From Candidatus Magasanikiibacteriota bacterium (lineage in GTDB: Bacteria; Patescibacteriota; Patescibacteriia; Magasanikbacterales; GWA2-37-8): a stretch of 48,570 nucleotides of DNA. Below the pieces are notes generated by a model, which had not been told where the DNA came from, ran no database searches, and saw nothing but the letters and a program-made list of their open reading frames with translations. The stretch is from the NCBI GenBank assembly GCA_023246715.1, contig JAHFHZ010000001.1, forward strand, positions 1 to 48,570, written 5' to 3'. A program made the translations under genes and the position numbers. Below are positions 1 to 27,917 of this stretch, in pieces. The first letter of the stretch is position 1. The number at the start of each line of letters is the position of its first letter.

Positions 1-1118
1 CCATAGTCCCCACCATGGCAGTTGATTTGCCGGTTGATGCGAAGATAATGGCCGGTTCCGCGCCGAGCACGATGATTGTGCGTCCTGGGTACTATGGATA
101 CCGGTATGTGTACAAAGGCGAGGTGCTGAGCTTGGCTGATACTGAAGTAACTGTGTACCGCCGCGCCAGAGACCCACAAGGAGCCCTTGCATTGGGTGGT
201 GATAACCCACTTGGCCTGCTCAACTTGAGTAGTTTTCCGGGGAGCAAACTCCAGAATTTTCAGGTTTACCAGGATCAATCCGAAGGTTATAGTTTGAATG
301 TGGATGTGGAAAACGGCACTATCTCGATTAACCAGTACTGGCCGGGCTGGAACAAATGCGGAGTTGATGGCCGTTGCCCGGAATTGCCTTCGTTGACTCA
401 GGCAGACGTGCCGAGCGACGAAGCAATGATCGCGATCACTAATTCTTTTTTGAATGCGCACGGCATCCCCACCACTGGTTACGCCAAGCCAGAAGTACAG
501 CGCGAGCAGCCGATATACACGATTATGACGGAGCCGGGCGCGACTATGCCCGCAGTTGATCTGCCGCAGTATGTTCCGGATACTTTTTTAATAACGTATC
601 CAGAACTCATCGCCGGGCAAACTGCTTATGAATATGGTTCGACCAAGGCGGGTTTGAAAATTAACGTAAATATTCGCGATAAAAAAGTGGTCAGCTTGTG
701 GGACCTGAAACGCACGGCCTTTGAGGGTTCGCTCTACGCGTCGGAAACAGATTTTGCTCAGTTAGTAAAAATTGCTGAGCAAACTGGCTGGGCTGCTCCC
801 GAAGCGGAAGGCAAGGCCGCCGAAGTGCAGTTGGGGACTCCGCAGCTGGTGTTGACCAAGGTCTGGCAGAGCGATCCGGCTAACAGCGCCAAACAGCAAG
901 AACTATTTGTTCCGGCGTATTCATTCCCGGTTTTGAACGCCGAGGCTTTGGGTGGTTACTTTGGGCAGAACGCGGTGATTGTTCCGTTGGTCAAAGATTT
1001 GTTGGATGCCTATGGCAACCAACCACAGCCGATGCCTTTAATGAAAGCCGATTTGGTTCGCCCGACCGAGCCAGCCATTGAACCTCAAGGTGCTCCGATG
1101 CCAATTGAGAAAAAATAA
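1..1118 (+). CDS. Hypothetical secreted/membrane-associated protein, 5' end truncated by window
   Basis: ORF 15..1118 stays open upstream to base 1; no family recognised. Confidence 0.75.
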   Translation, partial: IVPTMAVDLPVDAKIMAGSAPSTMIVRPGYYGYRYVYKGEVLSLADTEVTVYRRARDPQGALALGGDNPLGLLNLSSFPGSKLQNFQVYQDQSEGYSLNVDVENGTISINQYWPGWNKCGVDGRCPELPSLTQADVPSDEAMIAITNSFLNAHGIPTTGYAKPEVQREQPIYTIMTEPGATMPAVDLPQYVPDTFLITYPELIAGQTAYEYGSTKAGLKINVNIRDKKVVSLWDLKRTAFEGSLYASETDFAQLVKIAEQTGWAAPEAEGKAAEVQLGTPQLVLTKVWQSDPANSAKQQELFVPAYSFPVLNAEALGGYFGQNAVIVPLVKDLLDAYGNQPQPMPLMKADLVRPTEPAIEPQGAPMPIEKK

Positions 1119-1130
1119 TTCAAGCATACA

Positions 1131-1158
1131 AACAGCCTCCGTTAGTGGAGGCTGTTTT
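1131..1158 (+). terminator. Rho-independent terminator
   Basis: AACAGCCTCC-gtta-GTGGAGGCTGTTTTT just after the first CDS. Confidence 0.85.
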
Positions 1159-1171
1159 TGTATTGAGGCTA

Positions 1172-1198
1172 AAGCACCCCTGGTAAGGGTGCTTTTTT
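1172..1198 (+). terminator. Second tandem terminator hairpin
   Basis: AAGCACCC-ctggtaa-GGGTGCTTTTTT. Confidence 0.75.
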
Positions 1199-1647
1199 GA
1201 TTGCGTTGATTTTTTTATGCTTGATCCGAGCAAAGTTATTTTTCAAAAATTAAGAGATAGGCAACAGCCGTTTTTTTAAATTCTTCATAGACTCGTCTTA
1301 GGGTTAGAAACCCCCGGCTTCAGCCGGTTCTTTTAAGTAAATACATATCTCCACGATGAGTCCCACGGACACTAATCTTTAGCGCCCTTACAGGGCGAGA
1401 GCTGTATTCACTGGATTCTTTCGGCTTCTAGCCGAAAGTGGTTCAGTCTCCCAAACAAGCCCGGGCGCATCATATTGCAGCGGGTCGGTGGCGTTCTGAG
1501 CGGTTATTTTTTGATCATTTTTCTGCATATGTTTATTAATAATACCAGATTATGGTTGAAATTAAAATTATTCGTGTTCACCATAATTGTTTTTTCAGCT
1601 TTATATATAGTATAATAATACTTAGTTTTTCTGATAATTTTTATTTT

Positions 1648-2118
1648 ATGCATCGTTTGGCCGGTCGCTTTTTAGCTCATTTTGACCATTCAGTCATTCA
1701 TTTTTTTAGAAAGATTTCTCGGCCTTTAGCGCGGGTGGCTTTATTTACGGTCTTTTTTTGGTTCGGTATCTTAAAAGTTTTTGGCTATAGCCCGGCTAAT
1801 CCGTTGGTGGAAGCTTTGCAGCGGCAAACGCTCCCTTTTATGACTTTTGGCACGTTCATTATTTTTTTTGGATTGTTTGAAATGCTGATTGGAGTTTTAT
1901 TTGTATATCCTGGCTTTGAACGTTTGGCCATCGCTTGCTTGATTCCGCATATGGTTACCACCTGTTTACCCCTAGTATTATTGCCTCAAGTGGTTTGGCA
2001 GGGATTTTTGGTTCCAACCCTGGAAGGGCAGTATATTATCAAGAATTTGATTATCGTGGCCTTGGCATTTAGTATGGCTGGTGGGTTGCACCCGTGGCGA
2101 GAACCTAAGCCCCACTAA
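1648..2118 (+). CDS. DoxX/YkgB-like small integral membrane protein
   Basis: In-frame ATG at 1648 in ORF 1552..2118; four hydrophobic segments. Confidence 0.6.
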   Translation: MHRLAGRFLAHFDHSVIHFFRKISRPLARVALFTVFFWFGILKVFGYSPANPLVEALQRQTLPFMTFGTFIIFFGLFEMLIGVLFVYPGFERLAIACLIPHMVTTCLPLVLLPQVVWQGFLVPTLEGQYIIKNLIIVALAFSMAGGLHPWREPKPH

Positions 2119-2158
2119 CTGTTTTTTTTGGTATTTTTGTAGTATACTGCGTACAGTT

Positions 2159-2611
2159 ATGGGATTATTTTCTGATTCTACTTCACAAGCTATTCCTTTG
2201 TTGGCTGCAGATGAAGACCGGCCATTTTTTGATTTTTCTTTATTTAAACAGGATGCGGGCGTTTTGTGGGATGGAGCCCACAGCGAAGGCGAGTTGGCGG
2301 TTGACGTGAGTGAAACAGCGACCGAAGTTTTTGTGGTCGCGCCGTTGGCTGGCACGCCCCCGGAGTCAATCTCGTTGCATTTGGTAAACGATGTTATCAC
2401 GATTCGAGGGGAACGGCATAGCCCTATACCAAAGGCGGCGATGCCATTTTATCAAGAGTGTTTTTGGGGAACTTTTTCGCGGACCATTGTTTTGCCGGTG
2501 GAAGTGCGGCCGGAATCGGCCAGAGCCAGCTATCAGCGCGGGGTCTTGACAGTTAGCCTGGAAAAAGCGCAGCATACGGCTACAATTCCGCTATTGGTTA
2601 TTGAAGAATAG
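2159..2611 (+). CDS. Hsp20/alpha-crystallin family small heat-shock protein
   Basis: Alpha-crystallin-like domain (VDVSETATEVFVVAPLAGTPPESISLHLVNDVITIRGER...GVLTVSLEKA); ATG at 2159. Confidence 0.85.
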   Translation: MGLFSDSTSQAIPLLAADEDRPFFDFSLFKQDAGVLWDGAHSEGELAVDVSETATEVFVVAPLAGTPPESISLHLVNDVITIRGERHSPIPKAAMPFYQECFWGTFSRTIVLPVEVRPESARASYQRGVLTVSLEKAQHTATIPLLVIEE

Positions 2612-2640
2612 TGGCGGTACGGTTTTAAAAATTTTTATTT

Positions 2641-4659
2641 ATGGAACAGGGATTGAACCCGTCTCAAAAGCCAGGGTTTTTTATTCGCTGGCGACAACTG
2701 CTATTTGTTATTCTAGCTGTGATTATCGCGGGTGGTGTTGTGATTGGCTCCGCCGCCGCGTATGGCGCTTATTATGCTAGCCGGGTGTACCCGGGGGCGC
2801 ATTTAGGTTCAATCGCGATTGGCGGTTTGACGCCCGCGGAAGTGACCGTTCTGACCGCAACGGTGGCCGAACGTTATAACCGCGACGGTTTACAATTGCT
2901 CGTGACGGGGCGTCCGAGCGCCCAGGCAGAAGGAATGATTCCGCGATTGGTGACGATTGCTGTGGCGAAGAGCGCCGAAAATCCGGCTGTTATTGAAATT
3001 TCACCTGAAGTGGTTGGCGCGCAGGCGTTGGCGCTCGGGCGGACCGGTTCGCTGCTGCGACGCTTATTTGAACCCTTGTATATTTTGGTAAGCGCCACCC
3101 GCGTGCGTTGGGAGGCAGGCATTAATGAGCGGGAGCTTGAAAAACGTTTACGCTCGGCGCTCGCGAGCGGGTCTGATGAACCGCGTAATGCGACATTGCT
3201 GGTGGAAAGTGTGGCCCCGTGGCGCTACTCGGTTGTTGCGGAACGCTCCGGTTCGAGTTTTGAGTACGCGGCAATCGCGCGCGAAGCTGCGCGCCAAGTT
3301 AGCCTGCTTTCTTTTAAACCGATAGCAGTACAAGCGTTTGATTTTACTCCGACAATTAAAGCAGCCGACGTGGAATCGGCCGCTCCCTTGGCCGAACGAG
3401 TAGTCAATTTAGGTAATTTGACCTTGGTTGTTTCTTCGACTGTCGTCACACCAATGTCGTGGGTCATTATCCCGAGTGTGTTTGCCTCGTGGTTGGAACC
3501 GCGCGAATTGCCCGGTCAAAATGGAGTAGTGTTCGGGCTTAGGTTATCCGCCGTAAACGATTTTTTACAAACAGCGATTGTTCCGACGCTTTCTCGGGAG
3601 CCGGTTGAGCCACGTTTTGTGCGCAATGGGGAAAAGGTAGTTGATTTTCAACCGCCGCGGACGGGTGTGACGCTTGACGCGCTCGCCATAGTAACCCGCC
3701 TCGATGAAGAGATTCTGCGACGGGGAAGCGGACAGGGAATTAGTACTGTGGAAGGCGTGGTGTCGGTCGTGCAGCCGCTCACCCAACTCTCGGCGCTTAA
3801 TGATCTGGGCATTAACGATTTGGTTGGCGTGGGTACTTCAACTTTTCGTGATAGCCATACTAATCGGATTAAAAATATTGCCAACGCCGTAGGGCGTTTG
3901 AACGGCGTGCTGATTGCTCCTGGGGAAGAGTTTTCCGCCAACCATTATGCTGGGCCGTATACCCGCGAGAATGGTTTTTTGCCGGAGCAAGTGATTAAGG
4001 GGAATGAAATTAAACCCGAAATAGGCGGAGGGATGTGCCAGATCGGCACAACGCTGTTCCGCATGGCGATGCAGTCGGGTTTGGATATTACCGAGCGGCG
4101 CAATCATTCATTGGTGGTGGGGTACTATTCCGACCCGGTGAATGGAAATCCGGGGACAGACGCTACGTTGTATGAACCGATTTTGGATTTAAAATTCCGC
4201 AACGACACCGGGCGTTATTTATTGTTGACTACCGAGATTGATTACAAAGAACAACTATTGACGTTTAGTTTATGGGGAACGCCGGATGGCCGCGCGGGTT
4301 GGTATACGCACCCGCTCGTGAGCCGCTGGATCCCCGCGGGAAAGGCGCAGCAGTTTTTGGTTGATACGCTCCCGCCGGGCACCACTAAATGCCAAAACGC
4401 TTTCCGCGGAGCGGTGGCCAGCTTTTTGTATACGCGGATTACCCCGGAGGGCGAAAAAATTGAGCGCACGTTTGACAGCGTGTATCGGCCGTTGCCTAAA
4501 ATTTGTTTGGTTGGTAAAGCGCCAGACGACCTGGTAGCCTGCCCAACGGGCAAGAAATGCGCGGTTACCGAAGCGCCCACTCCACTCGCGCCCGGCGTGG
4601 GTGACGCGCCGTTGGTTGAGCCTGCTCCGGAATTGCCGGTGCCTGCCCCAACCGAGTAA
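2641..4659 (+). CDS. VanW family protein with N-terminal TM and peptidoglycan-binding-like repeats
   Basis: VanW motif EFSANHYAGPYTRENGF...GGGMCQIGTTLFRMAMQSGLDITERRNHS. Confidence 0.9.
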   Translation: MEQGLNPSQKPGFFIRWRQLLFVILAVIIAGGVVIGSAAAYGAYYASRVYPGAHLGSIAIGGLTPAEVTVLTATVAERYNRDGLQLLVTGRPSAQAEGMIPRLVTIAVAKSAENPAVIEISPEVVGAQALALGRTGSLLRRLFEPLYILVSATRVRWEAGINERELEKRLRSALASGSDEPRNATLLVESVAPWRYSVVAERSGSSFEYAAIAREAARQVSLLSFKPIAVQAFDFTPTIKAADVESAAPLAERVVNLGNLTLVVSSTVVTPMSWVIIPSVFASWLEPRELPGQNGVVFGLRLSAVNDFLQTAIVPTLSREPVEPRFVRNGEKVVDFQPPRTGVTLDALAIVTRLDEEILRRGSGQGISTVEGVVSVVQPLTQLSALNDLGINDLVGVGTSTFRDSHTNRIKNIANAVGRLNGVLIAPGEEFSANHYAGPYTRENGFLPEQVIKGNEIKPEIGGGMCQIGTTLFRMAMQSGLDITERRNHSLVVGYYSDPVNGNPGTDATLYEPILDLKFRNDTGRYLLLTTEIDYKEQLLTFSLWGTPDGRAGWYTHPLVSRWIPAGKAQQFLVDTLPPGTTKCQNAFRGAVASFLYTRITPEGEKIERTFDSVYRPLPKICLVGKAPDDLVACPTGKKCAVTEAPTPLAPGVGDAPLVEPAPELPVPAPTE

Positions 4660-4675
4660 CGCCAAAAATTTGAGA

Positions 4676-4980
4676 ATAAAAAACACCACCCTCGACTATG
4701 TCGAGGGTGGATTGTTGTTAAGCGGGGGTTTCCCCCCATAACCGTATCCAAGAAGATAAGTTAAGCGCAAAGAGTAGCATTACCCATTCTTCCGTCTAAC
4801 TTATCTCCATGCTTGTCGTGGATACGGGTCGCTAGGCAGTAAGACAAGCTTTACTTTCCAACGATCCGTAACCATTTGTAAGCGGAGAGGTGAGTGGTGC
4901 GCCAGGATACATTAATTATTTCGGCCGGACATGAAGCGGTTCGGCACTGGCGCGTTTTTACCTTGGTTAATTTCGTAACA
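4676..4980 (-). ncRNA. Candidate structured non-coding RNA of unknown class
   Basis: Minus-strand TTGACA-17-TATACT promoter (agtata 4985-4990, tgtcaa 5008-5013), nested helices, terminator CCACCCTCGA-catag-TCGAGGGTGG + T-run; no convincing ORF. Confidence 0.6.
4678..4710 (-). terminator. Strong rho-independent terminator
   Basis: Perfect 10-bp stem 4686-4695/4701-4710 followed on the minus strand by TGTTTTTT. Confidence 0.85.
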
Positions 4981-13175: not shown

Positions 13176-13462
13176 CTACCAGGGAAAGAAAGATCATTGA
13201 CAACATTAAAGGTGATAAAAACCACAAACAGTCAACTGTCGTGAGATAGTTGAACGGTCTATCCTTTAAAATAAGATTTTATGTCGGGCCATTGCCCGGC
13301 ATGGAACCCCTTATAAATCCAAATCACAACAACACAACCCTTTCCTCCGGGAAAGGTATCAAACTTTTATTGAGAGTTTGATCCTAGCTCAGGATGAATG
13401 CTGGCGGCGTGTTTAAGGCATGCAAGTCGAGCGACGTGCTTTCTAGCACTAAGGTTTTAATT

Positions 13463-13528
13463 TGTCATGCCCGTGAAAACGGGCATCCACAAAACGGACA
13501 CTGGATTCCCGCCTACGCGGGAATGACA
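13463..13528 (+). repeat. Palindromic repeat copy 2, inside 16S V1 (helix 6)
   Basis: tgtcatGCCCGtgaaaaCGGGCatccacaaaacggacactggATTCCCGCctacGCGGGAATgaca; flanked by TCTAGCACT/AGTGCTAGA helix. Confidence 0.85.
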
Positions 13529-14202
13529 CGATTGAAGCTTGAGTGCTAGAGAGTTACGAGCGGCAAACGGGTGAGTAACACATTGGTAACCTACCTTGAA
13601 GTCAGGGATAGCCCGCCGAAAGGCGGATTAATACCTGATAGCCATGCGGGGGCATAAGCCATTCGCATGTAAAGATTTATTGCTTCAAGAGGGGCCTATG
13701 GCCTATCAGCTAGTTGGCGGGGTAATGGCCCACCAAGGCTACGACGGGTAGCAGGCGTGAGAGCGCGACCTGCCTCACTGGGACTGAGATACTGCCCAGA
13801 CATCTACGGATGGCTGCAGTCGAGAATATTCCTCAATGGCCGAAAGGCTGAAGGAGCGACGCCGCGTGTAGGATGAAGGTCTTCGGATTGTAAACTACTT
13901 TTATATGGGACGAATTCGTGACGGTACCATAGGAATAAGAGGTTGCTAACTCTGTGCCAGCAGCAGCGGTAATACAGAGACCTCAAGCATTATCCGGATT
14001 TATTGGGCGTAAAGCGTCCGCAGGTTCCGCACTTAGTCCGGCGTTAAAACCCAGAGCTCAACTCTGGGACAGCGCTGGATACTGGTGCGGTAGAGGGCGG
14101 GAAAGGCGAACGGAATTGCCGGTGTAGTCGTAATAAGCGCTGATATCGGCAAGAACACCAAATGCGAAGGCAGTTCGCTGGAACGCACCTGACACTCAGG
14201 GA

Positions 14203-14250
<48 letters not shown>

Positions 14251-14325
14251 CTAAACGATGTGCACTAGGTATTGGCAGTATCGACCCTGCCAGTGCCGTT
14301 TAAAAAAGCTAACGCGTTAAGTGCA

Positions 14326-14367
<42 letters not shown>

Positions 14368-14368
14368 A

Positions 14369-14413
<45 letters not shown>

Positions 14414-14611
14414 GTAAGCGTGGAACCTTACCTGGGTTTGACATGTAGCTGCAAGCCACCAGAAATGGAGGCCGCCTTCGAGGGTGCTACACAGGTGCTG
14501 CATGGTTGCCGTCAGCTCGTGCCGTGAGGTGTACCATTAAGTTGGGAAACGAGCGCAACCCACGCCGTGTGTTAAATGAACACACGGGACCGCCCGGCCC
14601 AAAGCGCAGTA

Positions 14612-14726
14612 TGCGCAATGATCAATTACCAATTTTCAATTTTCATTAAATTTTCAATGTTTCAATCCACAATTGTGTAGTTGATCATTGATTGGAAATT
14701 GTAAATTGGTAATTGAAAATTGAGCG
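14612..14726 (+). repeat. AT-rich palindromic insertion near 16S helix 39
   Basis: CAATTACCAATTT (14623-14635) / AAATTGGTAATTG (14703-14715) inside CCCGGCCC.../...GGGCCGGG; absent from canonical 16S. Confidence 0.8.
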
Positions 14727-15235
14727 CGATAGCGCGTTTCGGGCCGGGAGGAAGGAGTGGACGACGTCAAATCAGCATGGCTCTTACATCCAGGGCTACA
14801 CACATGCTACAATGGCCGGTACAATGGGTCGCGAAGCCGCGAGGCGGAGCCAATCCCATCAAAACCGGTCTCAGTTCAGATTGCAGGCTGCAACTCGCCT
14901 GCATGAAGCCGGAATCGCTAGTAAACGCATATCAGCCACGGTGCGTTGAATACGTTCTCGGGTCTTGTACTCACCGCCCGTCACACCACGGGAGTTGGCA
15001 ATGCGCAAAGTCCCTTCGGGATTAACGCAGGGTCAATGACTAGGGTGAAGTCGTAACAAGGCATGGGTAGCGGAAGCTGCTCATGGATCACCTCCTTTCT
15101 GGAGAAACTCTGTCGGAAGACAGTGAATCTTCGTCGATAGGATTCTGGCAACAGAATTTCTAATGGAGGATAGATTGGCAGACGCATTAGGATTATGCGA
15201 AGCTAGGTTTTTATCACCTTTAGTGAAGTCAATAC

Positions 15236-24538: not shown

Positions 24539-25771
24539 TCAACGTCTGTTGGTTCGCTTGGCAGCGAGCAGCTCGCTTTGGTTCACCACCTCAATGCGCA
24601 GCGGCGGGATTGCGATGTTGTTCCGCAGCACGCGAACCGATCGTTTTGTTTCAATCACAGGTGCTTTGGGCGGCTCCCGGCCAAGTTTGATGGGCTTTTC
24701 GAAATTCTCCGTGAACCGGATCGCTTCTGCCACGGGCTCGCTCAGCACAATGGGGTTGCCTTCTGGCCCACGCAGCTCAGTGCAGAGGCCTTTCGCGCAA
24801 CTTGGCCTCCGCAAGAGCAGCTCGCTCCCGATCAGCACTTCGGTACCTGGTTCGGCCATGGCGGCAAGCAGTGGCTGCCCGCACTCGATGAGTGGAGCGT
24901 CGGTACGATTCTTGTTTTCGTACAACGGTGACGTCTCTGGCGTGTAGGGTGGCTCGACGCATGAATCTGGTGGATTATCCGGGGTGCATTCCGGATCGGG
25001 CAGCCAGCAAACGCCGCCAGCTTCCGGGTACAGTGAACGCACGGTGCGTCGGCAGACCCAATTCCGCCCGGGCAGCGCTTCCCACCACTCTCCGGCTTCG
25101 GCGAACATTTGCGTACGGAAGCGCAGTGGGGTGGTGTAGGCCTGGCACACGCCGCCGATTAAGGGTTCGCTCCGAGCTTCGCGATAGTCGGGCGGCAGAC
25201 AGATACCAGCCACTTCGCCCGGCTTGTCGGTGGTGCGGAAGCCGACACGCTGCCCAACCCAGAGCATTTGGTAGAACCAGATGCTTGGCGTGTTGAATTT
25301 GAGCTTGCGTCGTTGCCCTGCGTGCAGCACTTCGATCTCGGCGTGCAGAATTACCCGCCAACTTGCCCGCCAGATATCTTTTTCATCGGGCAGGCGCGGG
25401 AACACGATTTCATAGGGATCGAGCGGCGGGTTGACGTTGTCGTTGGTCAGCTCGACCGGCTGGCCGCCGGCGGTGCTCTGCAGGGTGACGATCACCATCC
25501 AGTTCAGCGCCGTCACGGTGCCTATGTGCCGACAGTCGGTTCTGTCGATGAGGCGCTTCGTTGGCACCGGGTAGCCGTCGATGTATGGCTGCCCGGGGAC
25601 TTTGAAGTAGTAGTCCTCGGTACCTGTTGCTTGTTTGAAGGCGGCGATTTGCGTGCCGGTATAGTAACCACCCTGCTGGGGGCCAACGTCTTCTTCGGCC
25701 CGGCTGTTACCAGGCTGGCAGATGGCGGCGAAGGTCAGAACCAGATACCACATGATCGACTTGGTCGTCAT
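24539..25771 (-). CDS. Secreted protein of unknown family, Cys-containing, GC-rich
   Basis: Signal peptide MTTKSIMWYLVLTFAAICQPGNSRA; SD AAGGAGTATGCACCATG. Confidence 0.8.
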   Translation of the reverse strand: MTTKSIMWYLVLTFAAICQPGNSRAEEDVGPQQGGYYTGTQIAAFKQATGTEDYYFKVPGQPYIDGYPVPTKRLIDRTDCRHIGTVTALNWMVIVTLQSTAGGQPVELTNDNVNPPLDPYEIVFPRLPDEKDIWRASWRVILHAEIEVLHAGQRRKLKFNTPSIWFYQMLWVGQRVGFRTTDKPGEVAGICLPPDYREARSEPLIGGVCQAYTTPLRFRTQMFAEAGEWWEALPGRNWVCRRTVRSLYPEAGGVCWLPDPECTPDNPPDSCVEPPYTPETSPLYENKNRTDAPLIECGQPLLAAMAEPGTEVLIGSELLLRRPSCAKGLCTELRGPEGNPIVLSEPVAEAIRFTENFEKPIKLGREPPKAPVIETKRSVRVLRNNIAIPPLRIEVVNQSELLAAKRTNRR

Positions 25772-25871
25772 GGTGCATACTCCTTGGTTTGTTGGGTATT
25801 TGGCCCTGATTAAAGGCAAAAAAACCAACCCCCAAAGAGATTTTTTAAAGAACTGTCAAAAAACAGAACAG

Positions 25872-25902
25872 GGGAATATAGCATATATTTGTGGAAAAGT
25901 CA
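25872..25902 (-). promoter_or_regulatory. Promoter of the 24539..25771 gene
   Basis: TTGACT-TTTCCACAAATATATGC-TATATT, 17-bp spacer (approximate coordinates). Confidence 0.7.
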
Positions 25903-26069
25903 ATGTTTTAAAGCGTTATTTGCCCTGGGGATAACTTGATTGACGGTAGGCAGTGGTGCTGATAACGTTTAAAAAGTATGCAAATTAATCATTCGTCAAT
26001 CCAGCGTCCGACCACCATTAAGACCAACCTCGTGTTGGCGAGCTTTTTGGTAGTCGACTTTTGCCTGAC

Positions 26070-26150
26070 GGGTGATTATGCAAGTACAATGTAGCGCGGC
26101 TACATAACACTTACTCGATAATCACCCGAAGCTTAGCGCAACGGGTGATT
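26070..26150 (+). promoter_or_regulatory. Mutually exclusive hairpins (switch-like)
   Basis: GGGTGATTAT (26070-26079)/ATAATCACCC (26118-26127) versus AATCACCC (26120-26127)/GGGTGATT (26143-26150); inner ATGTAGC-gcg-GCTACAT. Confidence 0.55.
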
Positions 26151-26158
26151 TTAGTTAG

Positions 26159-26285
26159 TATAGGATTTGTGGATTTGGCGTATTGCTTTGTTGTCACTGT
26201 GTTCCTCGCTCATCGTAGAGTTGGCTACGACTCGCTCCGGTACTCGTTGCCGCCGCGCACTACACTCAAATCCACAAATCCTATA
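26159..26285. mobile_element. MITE-like element with 18-bp perfect terminal inverted repeats
   Basis: TATAGGATTTGTGGATTT (26159-26176) / AAATCCACAAATCCTATA (26268-26285). Confidence 0.5.
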
Positions 26286-26328
26286 GATAGAAATTTTGTT
26301 CTTTAAAATTTTCTCTACACACAATTTG

Positions 26329-26375
26329 CCCAAACCTTTTTCTTCCAGAAATAATCTGGGACAAAAAGGTTTGGG
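26329..26375 (+). other. Long hairpin in leader of the zinc-ribbon ORF
   Basis: CCCAAACCTTTTT / AAAAAGGTTTGGG with inner TTCCAG/CTGGGA. Confidence 0.75.
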
Positions 26376-26421
26376 TGATCATGGAGTGGGAAAAAACAAC
26401 CCGTTCAAGGAGTTTGTCTGC

Positions 26422-26771
26422 ATGTTGAATCGTAGCAATCTGTCCCGCACCGTTGTCCCTGGCGATCGTCGGCACACCGTGCGGGCCTGGAACGCCTTTC
26501 TGGCTGACGTCGTGGATGGTGTGAACCTCGATCAGGTCTGCGACTTGGGCGGCGGGAACACCCACGCCCAGCCCTGCAACTGCATGGCAGAGTTCGTCTA
26601 CCGGGCACCCACCCCGCCGATATCGCTTCCGATCCCGAGTCGACCGAGATCTCGCTCGAGCTCGACTTCAAGTGCGGCAAATGCCGCCAGCGTGTCGAGT
26701 TCATCGCCGTCGAGGACAAGCGCGTTGGTTCTGGCGGGGGCAAGTCGGATGGAGACAGGGTCGGTCGCTGA
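26422..26771 (+). pseudogene. Small CXXC zinc-ribbon-like protein, apparently frameshifted
   Basis: Frame 1 MLNRSNLSRTVVPGDRRHTVRAWNAFLADVVDGVNLDQVCDLGGG...CNCMAEFVYR; next frame DIASDPESTEISLELDFKCGKCRQRVEFIAVEDKRVGSGGGKSDGDRVGR*; SD AAGGAG. Confidence 0.55.
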
Positions 26772-26885
26772 AGCCCACCCTGATTCACTAGCTTCTGCCC
26801 AGGGTGTGGTAGGGGGAAGCGAGGAGCAGTACTCATGTTCGCGTGGCCGCTACGGCGGCTGCGCTGGCTACGAGCTGCTTCTCGC

Positions 26886-26948
26886 TGTCGGTGTCTTCCG
26901 TTGATAGCGGAACTGATGAGTCCTCAACATTAGGACGAAACACCGGTA
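26886..26948 (+). ncRNA. Hammerhead ribozyme, type III
   Basis: CGGTG-UC^-TTCCG(ttgatag)CGGAA-CTGATGA-GTCCT(caacatt)AGGAC-GAAA-CACCG: all three stems and invariant core present. Confidence 0.92.
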
Positions 26949-26972
26949 TTATTTATCTTTGAATAGTAAAAA

Positions 26973-26981
26973 TGGTATACT
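26973..26981 (+). promoter_or_regulatory. Extended -10 promoter for the EamA gene
   Basis: TGG-TATACT upstream of ATG 26991. Confidence 0.55.
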
Positions 26982-26990
26982 GAAGGCGTT

Positions 26991-27917
26991 ATGTATCTTG
27001 TTATTGCTTTCAGCGGCTTTGTATTGCTGGCCCTGGTGGGTATTCTGGATAAAAGTATTTTACAAAAGACACTGCATCGGCCAGTGTTGTTTGTTTTTTA
27101 TTCGACGATTTTTGTTTTACCAATTTTGCTTCTGGCGCCGTTTGGCGCGGGGGTTTTGGCTACTGGTTTGCATTGGTTTCTGGCGGCTGTTTCGGGCGTG
27201 GCGTTTGGCCTGGCGCTCTGGGCAACGTATATCGCTATTCACGAAAGCGAAGTAAGCCATGCCGGGCCGCTCATTGGCGCGGCCACGCCTTTTTTTGTTT
27301 TGATTTTAAGCAGGTATTTTTTAGGCGAAGTGGTTACGTTTCGTCAGCAAATCGGGATCGCGGTATTAATCGTCGGATCGCTGTTGATTGCTCTGGAAAA
27401 AAGCCGACGGCATAATGGCTGGCACCGGGGAATGCTCTGGGGAATTCTGGCGGGGTTGGCTTTCGCAATTTCGCACGTTACGGCCAAGTACATTTATGAT
27501 CTGTACGGTTTTTATACCGGGTTTGTGTACACGCGCGGAGCGATGGGTCTTTTTGGAGCCGCTCTTTTATTGTGGCCTGGTGTGTTGACGGCGCTCCGGC
27601 GAAAAAAACCGGCGGTAATAGCCGCGCAACACTTGCCGCGCGCCAGTGATCCCGGAGCAGGAAAATTTTTGATTATTGTTGTAGATAAGGTGCTGGGGGT
27701 AATTGGCGTTATTTTGGTGCAGTATGCCACGGCGATTGGCAGCGTATCGCTGGTAAACGCTTTAAACGGGGTGCAGTACGCGGTTTTGGTGGTATTGGTG
27801 GCGATTTTTTCTAAATTTTATCCGAAACTTTTTAAAGAAACCTATTCCCGGCATGAGTTAGCGCAAGAAATTATGGCGATTGCCTTGATTATCACGGGTG
27901 TTGGTTTATTGGTTTAA
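26991..27917 (+). CDS. EamA/DMT-family transporter
   Basis: Two repeated hydrophobic halves; SEVSHAGPLIGAATPFFVLILSRYFLGE. Confidence 0.8.
   Translation: MYLVIAFSGFVLLALVGILDKSILQKTLHRPVLFVFYSTIFVLPILLLAPFGAGVLATGLHWFLAAVSGVAFGLALWATYIAIHESEVSHAGPLIGAATPFFVLILSRYFLGEVVTFRQQIGIAVLIVGSLLIALEKSRRHNGWHRGMLWGILAGLAFAISHVTAKYIYDLYGFYTGFVYTRGAMGLFGAALLLWPGVLTALRRKKPAVIAAQHLPRASDPGAGKFLIIVVDKVLGVIGVILVQYATAIGSVSLVNALNGVQYAVLVVLVAIFSKFYPKLFKETYSRHELAQEIMAIALIITGVGLLV

Follow-up and report, generated by a model that had tools for sequence, protein, structure and literature searches.

A hammerhead ribozyme behind a GC-rich orphan gene in a Candidatus Magasanikiibacteriota genome and its proposed role in mRNA 3'-end formation

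Organization of the locus

The stretch of DNA analysed here, referred to as the window, comprises 48,570 nucleotides of contig JAHFHZ010000001.1 from a Candidatus Magasanikiibacteriota bacterium. The locus of interest contains a GC-rich orphan protein-coding gene on the forward strand (26422..26771), followed by a long hairpin and a type-III hammerhead ribozyme. The original prediction described a zinc-ribbon ORF in the position of this gene, but no single continuous frame exists there. Codon-usage log-odds in the three frames, trained on the other units described below, favour the frame opened by ATG 26422 as far as position 26600, approximately, and then the -1 frame to the TGA at 26769-26771. 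This one-base frameshift may be true and reflect decay, or it may be an assembly indel, and this copy of the gene may therefore no longer yield an intact protein. After this codon-usage scan, the reading of the region upstream of the ribozyme as a large noncoding RNA was rejected. The gene has no meaningful match in Pfam, PHROG, phage, plasmid and IMG/VR searches, and none among the genes of the other units.

Several features are located upstream of the gene. The ribosome-binding site AAGGAG (26407..26412, +) was read in the sequence 9 nt 5' of the ATG. A leader hairpin with 21-nt arms was found as an inverted repeat at 26329..26375 (+), and a boxA-like motif, GTTCTTTAAAA, at 26298..26308 (+) by a pattern search of the genome; the motif is enriched before unit starts. 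It is similar to boxA (E. coli TGCTCTTTAACA). Upstream of the leader lies a 19-nt perfect inverted repeat with arms 89 nt apart (26159..26285, +), which is not attC-like.

The 3' side of the gene is occupied by a long GC-rich hairpin (26819..26885, +), a feature that the original prediction did not mention. It ends at the base before stem III of the ribozyme, leaving no gap, and is predicted to cap the mRNA at its 3' end after cleavage. For the last 70 nt before stem III the folding energy is -43.9 kcal/mol, and the final pair coincides with the boundary. The minimum free energy structure of 26819-26956 consists of this hairpin and the native hammerhead, with native pair probabilities of 0.87-0.97. 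The upstream hairpin was also considered as a general protector of the ribozyme fold; in the window it does act in this way, yet no more than 3 of 22 members of the order improve, and the idea was rejected.

Downstream of the ribozyme is a gene of an EamA-family transporter (26991..27917, +; Pfam PF00892, E 1.2e-9), in front of which an extended -10 motif of its own can be read. A terminator search found none between the ribozyme and this gene, so that readthrough into EamA is possible. On the other side, a second GC-rich orphan gene is oriented divergently (24539..25771, -). It codes for 410 amino acids with a signal-peptide-like start, has a GC content of 0.60, and is equipped with a sigma70 promoter (25903-25875), a boxA-like motif (25843-25853) and an ordinary terminator without a ribozyme. 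It has no Pfam family and no phage homologue.

The wider flanks in the window contain genes for glycosyltransferases, EamA, a glycosidase and a permease, as assigned by Pfam. With such flanks the locus was rejected as a phage operon; no PHROG or phage match was found for the unit genes. The window also includes a 16S rRNA gene (13366-15098) of 1733 nt, which contains insertions relative to the 1533-position model.

The hammerhead ribozyme

The sequence parse placed the ribozyme at 26886-26948 (+), with the predicted cleavage nucleotide C17 at C26895 and the cut 3' of it, which are exactly the coordinates of the original prediction. Stem III is formed by 26886-26894 (UGUCGGUGU) and 26940-26948 (ACACCGGUA) and has nine pairs, counting U16.1-A15.1, of which two are wobbles. 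Stem I (UUCCG/CGGAA) can be extended by U.G and U-A and has 5-7 pairs, while stem II (GUCCU/AGGAC) has 5. Stem III is open; stems I and II are closed by the loops UUGAUAG and CAACAUU, respectively, and the former is similar to loop I of close relatives. The core had been claimed to be complete, and the structural parse agrees: CUGAUGA is found at 26913 and GAA at 26937, and the elements CUGANGA/GAA, H17, U16.1-A15.1 and G10.1-C11.1 are all present. When 26886-26948 is folded by itself, the native hammerhead is the minimum free energy structure.

When 1.3 kb were scanned permissively with all 4227 Rfam families, RF00008 matched this element with 40.7 bits (E 4.5e-7). In the whole 1.06-Mb genome it is the sole match (E 8.7e-8), and the further copies sought there did not appear. 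The score is below the Rfam gathering cut-off of 48.5 bits, which is a curator's threshold and not a structural feature, and for this reason the element is absent from a default Rfam scan. A resemblance by chance, for which this low score could speak, has a practically negligible probability in view of the two E-values, the covariation and the recurring arrangement described below. At the level of sequence and predicted fold, the element is confirmed as a genuine type-III hammerhead with an intact core.

Distribution and covariation

RF00008 matches were found in 18 of 95 relatives, in 24 of 384 sampled genomes of the class and in 31 of 384 of the phylum (6-8% of sampled CPR), and in none of 14 control genomes. 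In an exact-pattern scan with one genome per species, the 80 matches listed comprise 61 with CPR names, 6 with other names and 13 with unspecific ones. Among 176 distinct CPR hammerheads, the core CUGA(U/C)GA/GAA occurs in all but one, and in stems I and III most pairs show compensatory, double-sided changes. Hammerheads were parsed with a minimum of 4 pairs in stem III and 3 each in stems I and II; these minima bias the percentage paired at the inner pairs, and less so at the later ones, but do not affect the bases used there. Comparison with the Rfam model, proposed as a check, has a double outcome: the gathering score is not reached, but the E-value of the window element and the nearly invariant core uphold the assignment. 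Most of the related hammerheads are also below the gathering cut-off and only a few above it. This means that default Rfam scans overlook most of these ribozymes. Two CPR loci (L226, L227) carry several hammerheads each, among genes that appear housekeeping-like when their ORFs are judged by eye.

The recurrent unit

A hairpin of -8 kcal/mol or stronger, with its end no more than 4 nt away from stem III, is present in 20 of 22 members of the order, compared with 39% of control positions (p 1.1e-6). Outside the order the arrangement is looser: only 58 of 112 hammerheads of the named-genome set have an abutting hairpin, and many CPR hammerheads have no terminator. The IMG/VR comparison set for the abutting hairpin consists of only 4 parsed hammerheads. 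The 440 nt upstream of the ribozyme are GC-rich against the background in 19 of the 22 (median 0.55 vs 0.41, p 3.3e-6), and the downstream side is not GC-enriched. Ten GC-rich unit proteins were compared with Pfam, two of them from the window genome and the other eight from hammerhead units of relatives, and all remained below the cut-offs. The boxA-like GTTCTTT is found in the leaders of 15 of 24 units, or 12 of 21 without three (L102, L103, L105) that were themselves found via this motif, compared with 4% of control windows. At the level of the order, therefore, a unit recurs which often has a boxA-like leader, then a GC-rich orphan ORF, a hairpin and the hammerhead, and often a terminator. 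The original suggestion, of a hammerhead that closes a single-gene GC-rich unit of a CPR chromosome on its 3' side, is thereby supported and extended to an arrangement found across the order.

The three units just named belong to the at least three further GC-rich units of the window genome, which are located on another contig (C44) near 6151, 9926 and 36048. Their orphan genes stand behind GTTCTTTAMAA and have no hammerhead.

The position of the terminator is informative. It lies within 100 nt past the ribozyme in 14 of the 22 order members, against 7% of control positions, and relatives in which it directly trails the ribozyme favour the earlier assignment of the ribozyme to the upstream transcript. 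One could also suppose that the ribozyme serves mainly the downstream gene, by trimming readthrough, by giving the EamA mRNA a defined 5'-OH end or by uncoupling EamA from the orphan gene. The window copy, which has no terminator before EamA, would agree with such a role, as would the proposal of Perreault et al. that long phage RNAs are divided into segments of gene length by clustered hammerheads (PMC3088659). However, most order relatives do have the intervening terminator, the genes downstream of their ribozymes are unrelated housekeeping genes, the constant partner is the upstream GC-rich gene, and EamA has an extended -10 motif of its own. We consider a mainly downstream role unlikely.

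In two relatives (G022 and G024), three units follow each other in tandem and a hammerhead ends each of them; in G022 the row stands between secE/nusG-like and gyrB-like genes, named by eye from their translations. Viroid and retrozyme hammerheads cut multimeric RNA into units that circularise, and the tandem units could suggest a similar element, with ribozymes excising unit RNAs that become circular. The window genome, however, has a single copy, many units possess their own promoters, ORFs and terminators, and no reverse transcriptase was noticed on reading through the ORFs of the loci. In addition, the window genome has no RtcB, and of 57 relatives checked only two have it, neither of them with a hammerhead match. 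Rejoining or circularisation of the cut ends by RtcB is therefore unlikely, and circularisation was set aside as disfavoured. A retrozyme- or viroid-like element is, on these grounds, very improbable.

Two further features of the units may be mentioned. In the tandem units of L032 (6616-8900, genome G022), L033 (G024) and L042 (G007), a conserved structured 3' UTR precedes the hairpin and the ribozyme; it reads GGGAACAGA ... CTGAAAAAGTCTATCCC ... GGGG and is possibly a further RNA element. A hairpin that resembles a terminator, together with a U-run, stands just 5' of GTTCTTTACAA in the leaders of L280, L288, L290, L032, L033 and L042. In this position before boxA it looks like an attenuator.

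The insertion site and integron cassettes

An EamA homologue is found in 22 of 25 family genomes, and in many family members glycosyltransferase and EamA genes border the site. In one relative (G021) the site is empty, with 192 nt between the two genes and no insert. In five others (G004, G005, G009, G013, G022) it is filled by differing GC-rich inserts with a common leader motif, and the inserts are unrelated between genera. Since the inserts differ and one site is empty, the locus upstream of the EamA gene, which forms its conserved right flank, is an insertion hotspot. Other ribozyme classes were not found at the hotspot in five relatives (Rfam).

The hammerhead at this site is intact in G005, while in G004 the orthologous position (L280, about 6860) has a decayed hammerhead after a GC-rich ORF, the 3' half of stem II being lost. 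This decay, the unrelated or missing inserts and the frameshift of the window gene could indicate that the ribozyme is a hitchhiking relic, brought in by a mobile gene unit and functionless today. It should be noted, however, that the core and all stems are intact in the window, that a unit of a Gracilibacteria genome agrees with its stem I and core in 29 of 30 positions, and that the frameshift may stem from an assembly error. A functionless relic appears improbable to us.

A subgroup from different classes (G762, L132, G039, G161, G126, L140) bears on the mobility of the units. Both unit ends are alike in these, with 74-87% DNA identity, the flanks are unrelated and so are most of the ORFs; one ORF, with 89% identity, is common to G762 and L132. 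In three of them (G762, L132 and G126) attC-like sites, composed of GTTAGGC-type and TATAAC-type boxes, border the unit on both sides. These sites recur at 700-1400-bp spacing in L132 and G126, where the hammerhead gene stands in arrays with GNAT, HAD, NUDIX and phosphotransferase-like cassettes. Judged from their sequences, these three unit members appear to be integron gene cassettes. The integron-type integrase of L132 scores 259.7 bits with TIGR02249 (cut-off 265) and 257.1 bits with the XerA/integron model (cut-off 220). TIGR02249 was rejected as an integron marker: it matches 84 of the 95 relatives as well as four control genomes, and is unspecific because Xer-like recombinases score with it. 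Integron-like arrays with repeated attC-like sites were seen in CPR genomes at L132 (reverse complement, 200-4790) and L232 (5900-10400), one of them with a Xer/IntI-like integrase.

In the window genome the best listed integron-integrase match is a fragment of 115 amino acids. A pattern search near 25900-27000, which a degenerate site could escape, found no attC consensus R''/R' pair with a folded spacer, and an integron cassette was rejected for the window copy on the basis of this consensus search.

Proposed role in 3'-end formation

The arrangement of gene, hairpin and ribozyme allows us to propose that the cis-cleaving hammerhead probably generates the mRNA 3' end for the GC-rich orphan gene. 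RNA polymerase would transcribe the three together, the ribozyme would fold and then cut after C26895. The mRNA would then finish with the hairpin and some 10 nt of tail, which would carry a 2',3'-cyclic phosphate at its terminus; in its geometry this end resembles an intrinsic terminator. Any terminator would belong to the downstream RNA, which would be freed with a 5'-OH, and the cut would separate the unit from whatever follows it. The hairpin and the blocked end would shield the mRNA from 3' exonucleases. That the cleavage actually takes place, that it protects or stabilises the end and that this is of benefit is what we infer.

Formation of a 3' end is the most economical reading and we favour it with some reserve, weighing against it that the window copy has no terminator of the kind that most order relatives have, that its gene is frameshifted, that its score is below the gathering cut-off and that hairpin and terminator are less regular around CPR hammerheads beyond the order. 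The recurrence of gene, hairpin and ribozyme in many related genomes suggests a widespread way to make defined mRNA ends. More tentatively, the units may be mobile, self-contained cassettes which express GC-rich orphan proteins throughout the CPR lineage and are composed of promoter, boxA-like antitermination leader, 5' hairpin, ORF, 3' hairpin, hammerhead and terminator. The ribozyme cut could be their standard 3'-end step and some could move by integron recombination. If this is true, there would be a class of bacterial mRNAs with a ribozyme-made 3' end; we regard this wider picture as possible and somewhat doubtful.

The fixed arrangement across the order makes the role of bacterial hammerheads directly testable, since one can ask whether the mRNA ends at the cut and whether it is stabilised. 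The units also bring to notice the GC-rich orphan genes of CPR, with many exported-looking N-termini, common expression signals and an insertion hotspot.

Comparison with known systems

We know of no described integron cassettes that carry their own promoters together with a ribozyme, as these units do. The likeness to integron cassettes consists in the hammerhead gene between attC-like sites in G762, L132 and G126; the window unit differs in having no attC-like site by the pattern test.

The type-III hammerheads of plant viroids and retrozymes (reviewed in PMC6155905) share the ribozyme fold and type. The difference is that a single ribozyme is proposed here to end an mRNA, and that no RtcB ligase was found.

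The closest comparison is with the type-III hammerheads of bacteria and prophages. In prophages, Perreault et al. (2011) described hammerheads that flank single genes or short blocks (PMC3088659). A review of 2017 pointed out that bacterial hammerheads have small non-conserved ORFs next to them, and regarded the role of these ribozymes as an open question (PMC6155905). A search of an open-access library found no paper that links hammerheads to CPR or to integron cassettes. The original remark, that none was known as a 3' element of a single-gene cassette in a CPR chromosome, has to be qualified, since bacterial and prophage hammerheads beside small non-conserved ORFs had already been published. 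The core, the three stems and the open stem III are the same in these published ribozymes and in those described here, as are the small non-conserved ORFs nearby and, in some cases, several hammerheads per locus around single genes. However, the present ones are found in CPR chromosomes, in housekeeping surroundings and not in prophages, and they are located 3' of a GC-rich orphan gene, right behind a strong hairpin and, in the order, usually before a terminator.
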